Shown piece by piece: positions 13,442 through 59,880 of a stretch of 64,000 nucleotides of DNA (the first letter of the stretch is position 1; every line of letters begins with the position of its first letter). The stretch is from Acidobacteriota bacterium (GTDB taxonomy: Bacteria > Acidobacteriota > Thermoanaerobaculia > Gp7-AA8). The position numbers and the translations under genes are program-made. The notes beneath the pieces are model-generated. The model saw nothing but the letters and a program-made list of their open reading frames with translations. It had not been told where the DNA came from and made no database searches. Where the stretch lies: contig QHVT01000020.1 in NCBI GenBank assembly GCA_003223645.1, positions 1-64,000 on the forward strand. The letters run 5' to 3'.

Positions 13442-13599
13442 ATGAAGGCAGAAGGCAGAATGCAGAAGGCAGAAGTAAGAACCGAGGTTCGAGGTTCGAA
13501 GTTCGAGGTAGGAATTCAGAGTTTCTTCATTCGTACCTCGAACTTCGAACCTCTGTTTTTGTCTTCTCACTTCTGCCTTCTGCCTTCTGCCTTCATCTC
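13442..13599. repeat. Family A composite palindrome A2
   Basis: Outer arms are tandem heptamers (GAAGGCAGAAGGCAG at left, CTTCTGCCTTCTGCC at right). Inner arms are a second heptamer-like array (GAGGTTCGAGGTTCG at left, CGAACTTCGAACCTC at right). The entire space between the adaptor and pump genes is this one long hairpin. Confidence 0.85.
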
Positions 13600-24647: not shown

Positions 24648-24846
24648 CGGGAAAGCAGAAAGCAGAAAGCAGAAGGCAGAAGGCAGAAGGCAGAAGGCAG
24701 AAGGCAGAAGGCAGGGGTCCGAAGTTCGAAGTTCGAGGTTCGAGGTTCGAAGTACGAGGGAAGAATTCTGAATTCATCATTCGAACCTCGAACCTCACAT
24801 TTTTGCTTTCTGCTTTCTGCTTTCTGCTTTCTGCTTTCTGCTTTGT
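24648..24846. repeat. Family A composite palindrome A3
   Basis: The longest family A copy: about ten tandem heptamers AGAAAGC/AGAAGGC at left and six CTTTCTG heptamers at right, enclosing GTTCGAG-type arrays of both orientations. It fills most of the 363-base gap between the kinase 1 start and the next gene; the rest shows no gene. Confidence 0.88.
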
Positions 24847-27646: not shown

Positions 27647-27674
27647 TGCTGCCTCCTTAATTTTTGAGGGTTGG

Positions 27675-27865
27675 TTGTCGGGGACATGCTATCGCGGTGT
27701 GGTGCGGGCTTTCCAGCCCGCCCCCCCGGGGCAGGTTGGAAAACCTGCCCTACACCAGGGTTGGTTGTTGTTGGTGGCATGCTATCGCGGTGTGGTGCGG
27801 GCTTTCCAGCCCGCCCCCCGGGGGCAGGTTGGAAAACCTGCCCTACACCAGGGTTGGTTGTTGGG
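27675..27865. repeat. Two tandem family B elements (B4, B5)
   Basis: A unit of about 93 bases that starts TGCTATCGCGGTGTGGTGCG and includes hairpins GCGGGCTTTCCAGCCCGC and GGCAGGTTGGAAAACCTGCC occurs twice in a row, almost identical. It looks like a recent tandem duplication including flanking sequence. Confidence 0.85.
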
Positions 27866-27887
27866 GGGAATGCTTGCAAATAGGCTC

Positions 27888-30804: not shown

Positions 30805-32011
30805 AAGAGCAGAAAGCGGAACGCAGAAAGCAAAAAGTTTTCTGCGTTCTCATTTCTGTTTTCTGCTTTTTGCTTTCTGCTTTCTCCTCACGGCCTGTGC
30901 GTCGAGCGTCCAACTGACGTTCCCGCGCGATGGCAACTCATGGTTCGCGCTCGTCGAAGACGACAGCGGCCGCGTGCTCGCCTCGGTCAATGCCGACAAG
31001 CGAATGATCCCCGCGTCGAATCGCAAGCTCTTCGCCTCCGCGACGATCGCGAACTGTCTCGGCCTCGGCACGCAGCTCCACACGGAGATCCGCTTCGACG
31101 GCGACAATCTCGTCGTCGTCGGCGACGGCGATCCCTCCCTCGGCTCATGGCGCTATGAGCGCACCGAGGATTTCAATCGCGTCGCCGATTTGCTCGTGCA
31201 GCGCGGTGTCACCAGCGTGCACGACGTCATCGCCGACGTCTCGCACTTCGATCGCGTCACCATCCCCGGCAGCTGGAAGTACGGCAACCTCGGCAGCGAC
31301 TACGCCGCGCCGGTTGACGCGATCACGTGGGGCGAGAGCGAGATTCCGACCGATCGCGCGGTTCCCGATGCGGGCTTGCACGCCGCGACTGCGCTCGCCG
31401 ACGCGCTCGTGTCGCGCGGCATCGAAGTCACCGGCGTTCCGCGCGTGAACAGCGAGCGGCGCACGTGGGGCGAGAGAGTCGCCGACCTGCCATCGCCGTT
31501 CGTCGCGCAACTGCTCACGACCGTGCTGAAGAACAGTCACAACCTTTACGCGGAGATGCTGCTGAAACGCGCGGGCGACGGAACGTATCCGACTGCATTC
31601 GCGCTCGAGCGCGCATTCGCCACGCGCGAGGCACACGTCGCGAACAGCGACTTCAATTTTGTCGACGGCTCCGGCTTGTCGCCGGACGATCTCGTGAGTC
31701 CGAGGGCAATCGTCGCAATGTTGCGCTGGATGAACGATCCGATTCGCCGCGGCTTCTGGTGGTCGACGCTAGCGCAGCCCGCGAACGAAGGCACGCTGCG
31801 GCGGCGGCTGATCACGCTCGAACATCGCATGCGCGGCAAGACCGGAACGATCAACGGCGTGAACGCGCTCAGCGGCATCATCGAAATGCCGGGCGGTCAC
31901 TATCGATATTTCTCGATGGCCGCGAATCACGATCTCGACGGCGACGAGGCCGTGAAGATCATGGATTCGATGGTGGAGCAGATCGCCGGAACGTCTCCCC
32001 AAAAAAAGTGA
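30770..32011 (+). CDS. dacB: PBP4-type D-Ala-D-Ala carboxypeptidase (peptidase S13), lipoprotein
   Basis: A 413-residue protein. The active-site motifs of class C penicillin-binding proteins are present: SNRK (S-x-x-K) in MIPASNRKLFASA, S-H-N in KNSHNLYAEML, and K-T-G in MRGKTGTINGV. It trims or cleaves peptidoglycan cross-bridges in the periplasm. The export signal is FCFLLFAFCFLLTAC with a textbook lipobox (L-T-A-C), but that signal is encoded by the right arm of family A repeat A4. The start at 30770 overlaps the previous gene by 35 bases; no other good start precedes the signal. It is shorter than E. coli PBP4 and probably lacks much of the insertion domains. It is convergent with, and overlaps by 53 bases, the next gene. 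Confidence 0.87.
   Translation: MAKIFRLGVLRRRAESGTQKAKSFLRSHFCFLLFAFCFLLTACASSVQLTFPRDGNSWFALVEDDSGRVLASVNADKRMIPASNRKLFASATIANCLGLGTQLHTEIRFDGDNLVVVGDGDPSLGSWRYERTEDFNRVADLLVQRGVTSVHDVIADVSHFDRVTIPGSWKYGNLGSDYAAPVDAITWGESEIPTDRAVPDAGLHAATALADALVSRGIEVTGVPRVNSERRTWGERVADLPSPFVAQLLTTVLKNSHNLYAEMLLKRAGDGTYPTAFALERAFATREAHVANSDFNFVDGSGLSPDDLVSPRAIVAMLRWMNDPIRRGFWWSTLAQPANEGTLRRRLITLEHRMRGKTGTINGVNALSGIIEMPGGHYRYFSMAANHDLDGDEAVKIMDSMVEQIAGTSPQKK
30801..30889. repeat. Family A palindrome A4 at a gene junction
   Basis: Left arm AGAGCAGAAAGCGGAACGCAG, right arm TTTCTGCTTTTTGCTTTCTG. It begins at the stop codon of the upstream gene and its right arm encodes the hydrophobic core of the signal peptide of the PBP4-type gene. 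Confidence 0.85.
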
Positions 32012-33458
32012 GCGACTCGACGTCGCCGTCTTTCGTCAGATCGAACGCGACTTCTTCATCGACTTCGTCCAGCTCCGATTCGGCGGTGAAGATGTCGAAG
32101 TGGAAATGCTCGAGTGGAATCAGCAGGCGATTCCATTCGAGCACGAGCTGATCCTTCGCGCGCGTGATCTTCACGTCGCCGTAGGCCTTGTTCGAATACG
32201 TCCCGATGTAGGCGTCGAGCGGACGTGACGGCGTCGTGGCCGGCTTGCGCGCAGCCTTCCGATCCTGCTTCGCCTTCTCTTCTTTCTCGTCGGCCTTGCG
32301 ATCGACCATCAGGTAATACGCGTTCCAGTCGCGCGCCGGTTTGAGCGTGAGCATGTCGGCGAGCGCGTTGCGTAGCGCAACGAGGGCCATGCCGCGCCCG
32401 AGATTGGAGAGGATTACGAAGCCGGCCTGGCGGCGGGGGAGGAGATCGACGTGCGTGCGGAAGCCGTTGAGCGCGCCGGAGTGCGAGACGAGCAGCTCGC
32501 CGCGATAGTCCTGCACGTTCCACCCCATGGCGTATGCGAGCAGGTTCGTCTCCGGATGCGTGTCGCGCGTGAGGTTCTCGAGACGGATGACCGTGTTCGG
32601 CATTTTCGTTTCGGTGAGCAGCGCGGGATCGACGAGCTGCACGCCGTTGAACATGCCGTCGGCGAGCTGAAAGCGCAGCCAGTTTCCCATGTCGCGCGCC
32701 GACGACTTGACCGCTCCGCCCGCGCCGATCGTCGTCGTGTCGATCGGACGCTGCGCGGTGATGCGATCTTTTTTCCAGTCGTAGTGATAGCCGCTTGCGT
32801 GGTCGGCCGCGTTCCAATCGGCGTCGGACGTCACGGTGCGCGTCATCTGCAGCGGCGCGAAGATGCGGGTGCGCACGAAGTCGTCCCACGACATCCCTGA
32901 CGCGTGCGCAACGACTTCGCCCGCGGTGATGAACATGATGTTCTGGTACTGATACGACGTGCGGAACGGCTTCGTCAGCGCGACCTCGCCCATCGCGCGG
33001 ATCACCTGTTCGCGCGTGAGCGGCGTGTTGTCCCACAGCTCGTCGTGACGCGAGAGGCCGGTGCGATGCGACACGATGTCGCGGATCGTCACCATCTGAT
33101 CGGCGCACGGGTCGGAGAGTCGAAAGTATTCGAGGTGCTGCCGCACCGGATCGTCGAACGTCAGCTTCCCGTCGCTCGCCAGCATCGCCAGCGCCGCGGT
33201 CGTGAACGCTTTCGACGTCGACGCGATTTGAAAGAGCGTGTCGACGGTGACGGGCTGATTCGTGCTCAGGTCCTTCACGCCATACGCGGCGACGTAGACG
33301 ACGCGATCGTTTTTCACGATCGCCACCGCCGCGCCCGGAATCTGCCACGCCTTCATCGTCGCCAGCATCACGCGATCGACGGCCTTCGTGTCGACGGCAT
33401 TTTGCGCGAGCGCGGACAGAGCAAGAGCGAGGGAGACGACGTATGCAAGCGGACGCAT
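31959..33458 (-). CDS. Serine beta-lactamase-like hydrolase with C-terminal DUF3471-like domain
   Basis: A 499-residue protein from MRPLAYVVSLALALSALAQ (signal peptide). The beta-lactamase/esterase fold shows S-T-S-K in LFQIASTSKAFTTAA, Y-x-N in SYQYQNIMF and the later HSGALNGFRTHVDLLP. A Lys-rich linker (residues 390-420, DEKEEKAKQDRKAARK) leads to a C-terminal barrel (YIGTYSNKAYGDVKI) of the DUF3471 type. Such proteins are peptidases or esterases acting in the periplasm. Its upstream region on the minus strand is the 22-bp array at 33525-34052, which would be its leader or promoter region. Confidence 0.88.
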   Translation of the reverse strand: MRPLAYVVSLALALSALAQNAVDTKAVDRVMLATMKAWQIPGAAVAIVKNDRVVYVAAYGVKDLSTNQPVTVDTLFQIASTSKAFTTAALAMLASDGKLTFDDPVRQHLEYFRLSDPCADQMVTIRDIVSHRTGLSRHDELWDNTPLTREQVIRAMGEVALTKPFRTSYQYQNIMFITAGEVVAHASGMSWDDFVRTRIFAPLQMTRTVTSDADWNAADHASGYHYDWKKDRITAQRPIDTTTIGAGGAVKSSARDMGNWLRFQLADGMFNGVQLVDPALLTETKMPNTVIRLENLTRDTHPETNLLAYAMGWNVQDYRGELLVSHSGALNGFRTHVDLLPRRQAGFVILSNLGRGMALVALRNALADMLTLKPARDWNAYYLMVDRKADEKEEKAKQDRKAARKPATTPSRPLDAYIGTYSNKAYGDVKITRAKDQLVLEWNRLLIPLEHFHFDIFTAESELDEVDEEVAFDLTKDGDVESLTFFGETFRRSAPPSNP

Positions 33459-33524
33459 CGGTACGATTGTAAGCAAACCGCGGCCTCGCTCAGGCGTATT
33501 TACTTGCGTGTACAGACTGATCGC

Positions 33525-34052
33525 CGCTGCCATTTGCAAATGGACCGAGGGTCATTTCTTGAGCGATCGGCGTACGGCAGCGAAAGGACAACCGTTCATT
33601 TGTTCAAGAATCGTCGATCATTTACAAAAGGTCGGAGGATCACCTTTTAAAGGATCGCCGATCATTTCTAACAGGATGGCCGGCCATTTTCAGGACGAGG
33701 TTGGATCAGATCGTTCTGAGGAGGCGATCATTTCGCGATGTTCGGGCGATCACTTCAATATGATCCATGGTTCATTTCTTTTGGTCGCCCGATCCTTTTC
33801 AGGACGCAAGAGCGACCATTTCCGGAAAGTGCCGCCGGCATTTCGATCTGATGACCAGATCGCACTCATCTGATCAGCTCTTCGAAAGCGTGAGACGTAT
33901 CCCTCATATCTTTCTACAGGTTGCGTCAGATCGTTCTGATGAGGCGATCATTTCCTCATCATCGGGCGAGCACTTCGTCATGACCCGGCGATCCCTTTTT
34001 TCAGATCCATGGATCGCTTCTTTCTTGATCACTGATCATTTTGTGAACGCTT
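33525..34052. repeat. Array of 24 imperfect 22-bp units (iteron-like), rich in GATC
   Basis: Cut into 22-base units from 33525, the sequence keeps phase for 24 units with only one off-by-one shift (unit at 33789). The recurring half is GGCGATCATTTC (best at 33723 and 33943; GATC-type at 33613, 33635, 33657, 33745, 33987, 34009 and 34031); the other half of each unit is variable but often ends in GATC or GAT. I count about 22 GATC sites in 540 bases where two would be expected by chance. Units 9-12 (33701-33788) resemble units 19-23 (33921-34030), a higher-order repeat of ten units. It lies between a permease 3' end and a hydrolase 5' end. It is AT-richer than its surroundings and no continuous credible protein covers it. 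Confidence 0.85.
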
Positions 34053-34099
34053 CGGCGAAGGACTCGCCATCCTCGCGGCCGCCTGGAGCGCAGCGCTAC

Positions 34100-35410
34100 T
34101 CAAGCGGTTCGACGGCTGAGCGCTTCGCGCACGAAGTAAAAGAGGGCGCCCGCCGCGATGACATAGAGCGCGGCGATGCGCAGATGTTTCTCCGGCGAGA
34201 AGGCGACGTACAGCCACAACCCGAGTGCGATGATCGCGGGGATCGGATACAGCCACATGCGGAAAGGCCGTGGGCGATCCGGCTCGCGCACGCGCAGCAC
34301 GATCGAGCCGGCGACCTGCATCGCGAACGGGATGATCGCGCGAATCGAGAGGATGCCGCCGATGATGTGGCGCAGCGGAAGCCAGCAGAAGATCGCCGTC
34401 ATCACGCCTAAGAAGATCACCGCTACGAACGGATACGCCTCCGTCGCATGCAGCTTCGCGAAGACATTGAAGAAATTGTTGTCGCGCGCGGCGGCGAAGA
34501 GAATGCGCGAGTAGCCGAGCATCACCGAGAAGATCGAAGCGAACGCCGTCCAGAGAATCAGCCCCGACACCCATCGCGCGACGGTCGGTCCGGCGAGCAT
34601 TCGAATGTAGTCGGCGACGACGAAGTGCGACTTCGTCGCCGTTTCGTACGGCAGGACGGAGATGATGCAGGCCTGCATCACGATGTAGATCACGGCGATG
34701 GCGAGGATCGAGATCACGATGACACGCGGAATCGTTTTCTCCGGCTCCTTCACTTCGTCGCCGAGATAGGCGATGTTGTAGTAGCCGAGATAGTCGTAGA
34801 CCGCGAAGATCATCGCCGCGCCGAGACCGGCGAAGCCGGTGAGACCGTCATGACGCGGCGCGCGCCAGAACGCGAACGCATCGAGCTTCAGATGCGGCAA
34901 GCCGACCGCGATCACGACTGCGAGCGTCGCCAAGACGCCGATCCAGAGGATGACCGACAGTCGTCCGATGACATCGATGCGTCGCAGCAACAGAATCACG
35001 ATCAACACGCAGACGATCGTCGCGGTGATGGGAATGCTGCGGCCGGCGAACGGCCAGATCGGCTCGAGATATTGCGCGAAGCCGATGCATCCCGAAGCCA
35101 TCGAGAGCGGAGCGCTGACGAGAATTTGAAAGAGAAAGAGAAACGAGATCAAACGTCCCGCGCGCCCGAACGACTCGCGCAGGAAAACGTATGAGCCGCC
35201 CGCGCGCGGCATCTCCGCCGCGAGCTCCGCGGTGACGATCCCGTCGCAAATCGCCAGCACGCCCGCGAGCAGCCACGCCGCCATGCAGCGCGCGCCGCCC
35301 ATCGTCGCGAGAATGTACGGGATCGTAATAAACGGCCCGATCCCGACCATGTCGATCATGTTCAGCGCGACGCCGCGCCAGAGACCGATCTCGCGTTTGA
35401 GGGAGCTCAC
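34100..35410 (-). CDS. APC-superfamily amino acid permease
   Basis: A 436-residue membrane protein with a GTG start and twelve helices. The first helix carries GLWRGVALNMIDMVGIGPFITIP, with the unwound G-x-G-P-F type substrate-binding motif, and later come AELAAEMPRAGGSYVFLRESFG and YLGDEVKEPEKTIPRVIV, all typical of the APC (LAT/basic amino acid) family. It imports or exchanges amino acids across the inner membrane using the proton gradient or antiport. It stands alone; the 22-bp array lies just beyond its stop codon. Confidence 0.92.
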   Translation of the reverse strand: MSSLKREIGLWRGVALNMIDMVGIGPFITIPYILATMGGARCMAAWLLAGVLAICDGIVTAELAAEMPRAGGSYVFLRESFGRAGRLISFLFLFQILVSAPLSMASGCIGFAQYLEPIWPFAGRSIPITATIVCVLIVILLLRRIDVIGRLSVILWIGVLATLAVVIAVGLPHLKLDAFAFWRAPRHDGLTGFAGLGAAMIFAVYDYLGYYNIAYLGDEVKEPEKTIPRVIVISILAIAVIYIVMQACIISVLPYETATKSHFVVADYIRMLAGPTVARWVSGLILWTAFASIFSVMLGYSRILFAAARDNNFFNVFAKLHATEAYPFVAVIFLGVMTAIFCWLPLRHIIGGILSIRAIIPFAMQVAGSIVLRVREPDRPRPFRMWLYPIPAIIALGLWLYVAFSPEKHLRIAALYVIAAGALFYFVREALSRRTA

Positions 35411-35495: not shown

Positions 35496-35672
35496 ATGTA
35501 GAACGCAGAATTCAGAATGCAGAATTGGTGTAGCGCAGGCTTTCCAGCCTGCGCCCTCCCAGAGGACAGGCTGGAAAGCCTGTCCCACACCGGAAGTCCC
35601 GGCCCAAGCCGTGCTTCGTGTTTGGGCGTGCTTCTCAATTCTGCCTTCTGCATTCTGCGTTCTGCATTCCTG
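35496..35672. repeat. Family A arms (A5) enclosing a family B element (B6)
   Basis: Left A arm at 35496-35526 (GAACGCAGAATTCAGAATGC), B element at 35527-35593 (GCAGGCTTTCCAGCCTGC and ACAGGCTGGAAAGCCTGT), right A arm at 35632-35672 (CTGCATTCTGCGTTCTGC). The B copy appears inserted into the A hairpin. It occupies most of the gene-free stretch 35411-35736. Confidence 0.85.
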
Positions 35673-59773: not shown

Positions 59774-59794
59774 TCTGCATTTCTCACACCTTCG

Positions 59795-59880
59795 TCATCT
59801 TGAGCCGCGTAGACGGCGAAAGATCTCAATCTACGTAACTTGAGATCCTTCGCCGCGCTTCGCCGGCTCAGGATGACGTT
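59795..59880. repeat. Family G element G2
   Basis: TCATCTTGAGCCGCGTAGAC with GGCGAAAGATC at left, and GATCCTTCGCCG with GGCTCAGGATGACG at right. A single long hairpin. Confidence 0.8.

Follow-up and report, generated by a model that had tools for sequence, protein, structure and literature searches.

A two-turn tandem array of an Acidobacteriota genome and its probable place in a lineage-specific class of dispersed intergenic arrays

Several described systems come close to the repeat studied here. Bacterial intergenic minisatellites, or VNTRs, are lineage-specific head-to-tail tandem units of about 20 bp that lie between genes and grow by multi-unit duplication. The arrays of this work are alike in these respects, whereas they are confined to units of 20.5-22 bp across unrelated sequences, are mostly dyad-symmetric, and occur as whole arrays at many loci. 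The REP, BIME and REPIN elements, which are associated with the TnpA(REP) transposase, consist of palindromes 20-40 bp long that occur singly or in pairs and whose sequence is conserved. They too are extragenic palindromic DNA dispersed in one genome, but the arrays considered here are long tandem lattices of many unrelated sequences. The iterons of plasmid R6K are 22-bp direct repeats, as at this locus; on the other hand, the present arrays come without a visible Rep gene or a plasmid, in several chromosomal copies and alongside arrays of other sequence, and their units carry a dyad instead of being purely direct. Eukaryotic satellite DNA is also non-coding, also amplifies as arrays, and also turns over in sequence at a conserved unit length, although the arrays here are bacterial, measure only 200-600 bp each, and have a two-turn unit that is not of nucleosomal length. 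A precedent for two-turn intergenic arrays in bacteria was not found in the open-access literature, which is a weak negative.

The array lies in a window of 64,000 nucleotides, the whole stretch of DNA analysed, from an Acidobacteriota bacterium (genome G000); the comparison included a congeneric genome (G001) and genomes of other genera (G005 and G011). The first-pass annotation had described 24 phase-locked units of 22 bp, and these are real. In the autocorrelation of positions 33525-34046, the identity at lag 22 was 0.459, whereas dinucleotide shuffles gave 0.253 (z 10.3), and self-identity stayed at 0.41-0.42 at lags 44, 66, 88, and 110 (z 7.6-8.6). A comparable 22-bp periodicity is seen nowhere else in the window. 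The 12 exact CATTT cores all fall at a single phase of 22, and there is no indel or phase shift across the 24 units, of which only those 12 hold the exact motif. The units have decayed heavily at 33569 and around 33855-33921. While the existence of the array stands, its limits had to be corrected: the proper extent is 33525-34046 on the plus strand, with a consensus of approximately GGCGATCATTTC-NN-AATGATC, and the part common to its copies is 33527-34042. Within it, a block of about four units (33698-33781, plus strand) is 76% identical to 33918-34001, 220 bp or 10 units away, and represents a multi-unit duplication inside the array. The density of GATC was also confirmed, with 22 sites in 33501-34060 where 7.9 are expected.

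The unit is a 22-bp palindrome, GATCATTT-NN-AAATGATC-GCC, in which one half is better kept than the other. The earlier description set a conserved half against a variable one, but the second half is not free to vary: it still shows, in worn form, the reverse complement of the first (GATCATTT..AAATGATC), with AAATGATC matched at 80/184 positions against 46.1±5.7 in shuffles, and none of 1000 shuffles reached 80. The array-averaged dyad centres lie at two phases 11 bp apart, with values of 0.42 and 0.39 compared with 0.24 (z 6.8 for the better one). The first unit (33525-33546, plus strand) still has the perfect palindrome CCATTTGCAAATGG, and in the following units it is mainly the CATTT half that survives. 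Two-turn dyad-symmetric units of this kind are compatible with a dimeric protein having recognised them at some stage. The proposal that the sites are held on one face of the helix did not survive, because 22 bp corresponds to about 2.1 turns and the sites thus drift around the helix.

The whole 516-bp segment 33527-34042 (plus strand) is repeated at two other places of the same genome, G000:C30:36237-36752 on the minus strand and G000:C4:179574-180088 on the plus strand. The copies are 95-96% identical with no internal indel, and the three together show 39 variable sites and 0 indels. In the C30 and C4 copies, the shared sequence continues for about 12 more bases on the left and about 34 on the right. 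The C30 copy (region G000:C30:35585-37430) has toxin-antitoxin-like neighbours, as it is placed between an HTH (antitoxin-like) gene and a DUF4160 gene. In the window, the array occupies an intergenic insertion (33460-34115) of about 640-660 bp. Both flanking genes are present and syntenic in G001 and only about 16 bp apart there, so this is an empty site. A second array of G000 with a unit of about 21 bp (C29:146985-147417) likewise has no counterpart in relatives between the same two genes, the spacing being 530 bp here and about 80 bp in G001. For other arrays, orthologous flanks were sought in 400 kb of G001, and no overlap of synteny was found.

By means of a loose pattern and a sequence-only model, more arrays of the CATTT/AAATG type were found in G000 at C32:91364-91840, C32:95426-95560, and C36:18334-18760. 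In the C32 and C36 arrays, some wings keep the AAATG half and others the CATTT half, with perfect palindromes between them. The first-pass annotation had proposed to look for the same array in related genomes; BLAST of 59 relatives and of 297 genomes of the phylum matched G000 only. Arrays of the CATTT/AAATG type were also absent from 147 other genomes of the bacterial class, apart from one match (G099) to the sequence-only covariance model of three units, which was judged to be noise; the model otherwise found only the arrays of G000 itself. Exact fourfold CATTT at 22-bp spacing was matched in 119 stretches by a genome-contig search, but those inspected were unrelated ordinary minisatellites and were reused as controls. 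Numerous 22-bp minisatellites with CATTT exist in many Prevotella/Bacteroidales genomes and are unrelated to the class described below.

The census of such arrays covered 1.30 of the 6.38 Mb of G000, plus 0.4 Mb from each of three relatives; TRF and a custom-made gene caller served to count the period classes. When about 1.2 Mb of G000 was scanned for periodicity without bias, many arrays with periods of 20.5, 21, 21.5, and 22 emerged, every one of them built on a unit sequence of its own. TRF found 31 intergenic arrays of 180 bp or more in the 1.30 Mb, and 26 of them have a period of 20.5-22 or a multiple of it; the other five have periods of 12, 36 (three times), and 97 and are mostly indel-rich, low-quality calls. 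In total, about 27 distinct arrays of 190-620 bp were counted in the 1.30 Mb, a number that takes in more degenerate arrays added by hand, the window array included. They lie almost entirely between genes, though the coding density is 0.78-0.88, and their G+C content is mostly 0.42-0.63 compared with 0.63-0.64 for the genome. The family GCAAATGAAAACAGGCC amounts to 193 units at no fewer than 12 loci of G000, while 17 relatives yielded only a single isolated match with one mismatch. Dyads in the unit consensuses exceeded those of letter-shuffled versions with a combined p of 1.7e-12 over 29 arrays. Members of one family do not count as independent in this p, and in some arrays a dyad is lacking altogether. 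The arrays have no target-site duplication or shared terminal repeat that could be found, and comparison of their flanks gave no shared element ends. The same comparison brought up a dispersed hairpin element of about 80 bp (GTCATCYTGAGC...GCTCAGGATGACG, inner TACGTA) near several arrays, with sites at window 59790-59880, C29:2023, C29:299964, C29:359225, C32:3247, C4:78821, and one in C30. Five of the seven TACGTA-motif sites in 1.3 Mb are less than 600 bp from a two-turn array.

In 400 kb of G005, which belongs to another genus of the same family, 17/22 arrays have periods of 21, 22, 41-43, 62-63, or 82-84. Their sequences differ from those of G000, and many are dyad-symmetric (combined p 3e-5). 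The 400 kb of G001 contain two arrays of period 64, that is, three units of about 21.3, and no arrays of the class were present in 400 kb of G011, the third sampled genus. The geometry is common to genera and the letters are not.

We hypothesize, with a probability of roughly 0.6, that the window array is an old, decayed copy within a lineage-specific class of dispersed, non-coding, satellite-like arrays, the geometry of which is set by a hypothetical two-fold-symmetric protein. Each array is a tandem lattice of 20.5-22 bp units that are for the most part dyad-symmetric and place a dyad axis in every helical turn. The data show the class and its geometry, the change of sequence from family to family and from genus to genus, the copies in G000, the empty sites, and the multi-unit duplication inside the array, whereas the mode of spread, the drift, and the protein are inferred. 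Whole arrays may be copied to new intergenic sites by recombination or non-autonomous transposition, would grow and homogenise by unequal exchange, and would then drift in a largely neutral manner. The protein behind this geometry, presumably DNA-binding or DNA-processing and conserved, would impose the two-turn dyad at the birth or expansion of an array. A more specific form of the idea is tentative, and we hold it to be somewhat doubtful: an unrecognised trans-acting system of the bacterial family, in which a two-fold-symmetric protein would create, amplify, or polymerise on two-turn tandem dyads, as a counterpart of satellite DNA with inherited geometry and replaced sequence. If the geometry truly persists while the sequence is replaced between families and genera, it must be imposed by some protein or process. 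How bacterial tandem arrays originate could then be tested via a protein that binds or cuts these dyads, and the arrays would provide a compact bacterial model for the birth, spread, and decay of satellite DNA.

The arrays could instead be functional lattices under selection, maintained as binding platforms for a protein of nucleoid, segregation, or silencing function that requires a dyad in every turn. The two-turn period, the dyad symmetry, and the intergenic placement agree with such a role, and the first-pass annotation had likewise read the preserved spacing as a sign of selection. The 0 indels against 39 substitutions in the three copies, together with a low indel-to-mismatch ratio (0.12 in the class and 0.21 in the control minisatellites), leave some room for phase constraint, and the lower ratio could also mean selection on phase. 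However, the core (unit positions 3-10) is substituted as often as the rest among the three copies, 14/192 versus 25/324 (Fisher p=1.0), in a test of modest power with its 39 variable sites. No current constraint is visible, and the copies therefore look neutral today. Moreover, the sequence is wholly different between families and genera, the congener G001 lacks the array at the same place, and the sampled relative G011 has no such arrays, so that a maintained function seems rather unlikely to us. Ordinary neutral minisatellites are the opposite reading, in which slippage amplified random intergenic palindromes and the 21-bp period arose incidentally from hairpin size. Palindromes can provoke replication slippage, bacteria hold many minisatellites, this genome also contains 7-bp and 8-bp arrays, and the units studied here are head-to-tail, intergenic, and non-coding as in minisatellites. 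What does not match is the two-turn length with a dyad across the class, since unit length and sequence of minisatellites are otherwise free. Units of unrelated sequence keep to 20.5-22 bp, entire arrays are found again at dispersed loci, and ordinary 22-bp minisatellites from other bacteria have no comparable dyad enrichment (n=72, dyad p 0.05; Mann-Whitney p 7e-7 versus the class). We thus consider purely neutral slippage improbable.

A plasmid-like iteron origin or a centromere, as first suggested, has 22-bp direct repeats in its favour, as in the R6K iterons, and is given practically no weight here. The scan of six nearby window proteins returned a beta-lactamase-fold hydrolase, a permease, an S24/HTH regulator, peptidases, and a ketosynthase-like protein; the absence of a Rep or Par gene was confirmed among the neighbours examined, and no ParA/ParB-like operon appeared among the six. 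The iteron reading fails also on chromosomal synteny with G001 on both sides, on copies at unrelated chromosomal loci, and on the absence of any match to the array in 72,556 plasmid records; the three copies at unrelated loci count against a centromere-like site as well. Equally, 50,697 phage records and viral sequences gave no match and Rfam gave nothing at the array, in agreement with the earlier statement that it is of no catalogued type. A structured RNA, or an RNA-level protein sponge transcribed from the array, is very improbable: the array folds better than shuffles (z -3.8), but the opposite strand does so almost as well (z -3.5), as DNA dyads predict, and there is no Rfam match or conserved sequence. 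A role as an origin, a centromere, or a GATC-methylation device is not supported. In the case of a Dam/SeqA-type GATC cluster, GATC is peculiar to the window unit, only 15/24 GATC positions are common to all three copies, and most other arrays are GATC-poor (0-4 sites). The genome has a single Dam-type methyltransferase gene (MethyltransfD12, PF02086; G000:C41:242534-243208), and GATC methylation may therefore occur.

Other known kinds of repeat were rejected as well. The 22-bp units abut directly without spacers and no cas gene is present among the neighbours, unlike a CRISPR array. REPIN/BIME elements have a conserved short palindrome, single or paired, while these arrays are long and tandem with family-specific units. 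A protein-coding repeat is not indicated, as the 22-bp unit is not divisible by 3 and substitutions between the copies are evenly spread over the unit positions; stop codons occur in most frames of the array stretches checked. The left neighbour is a beta-lactamase-fold serine hydrolase with DUF3471 (31959-33458, minus strand) and the right one an APC-family amino-acid permease (34100-35410, minus strand), neither of which is functionally linked to the array; overall, the genes around it are metabolic or unrelated.

The window also contains other repeats. Heptanucleotide arrays of the GAAGGCA and TTCTGCC types form a separate repeat class at 24651-24844, 13444-13594, 344-375, 30839-30885, and 35638-35669. 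At 1648-1835, 90-bp and 18-bp repeats of collagen-like composition are probably minus-strand coding for Gly-X-Y-like repeats. Furthermore, a 93-bp element occurs twice at 27669-27874 and includes two strong hairpins (GCGGGCTTTCCAGCCCGC and GGGCAGGTTGGAAAACCTGCCC).
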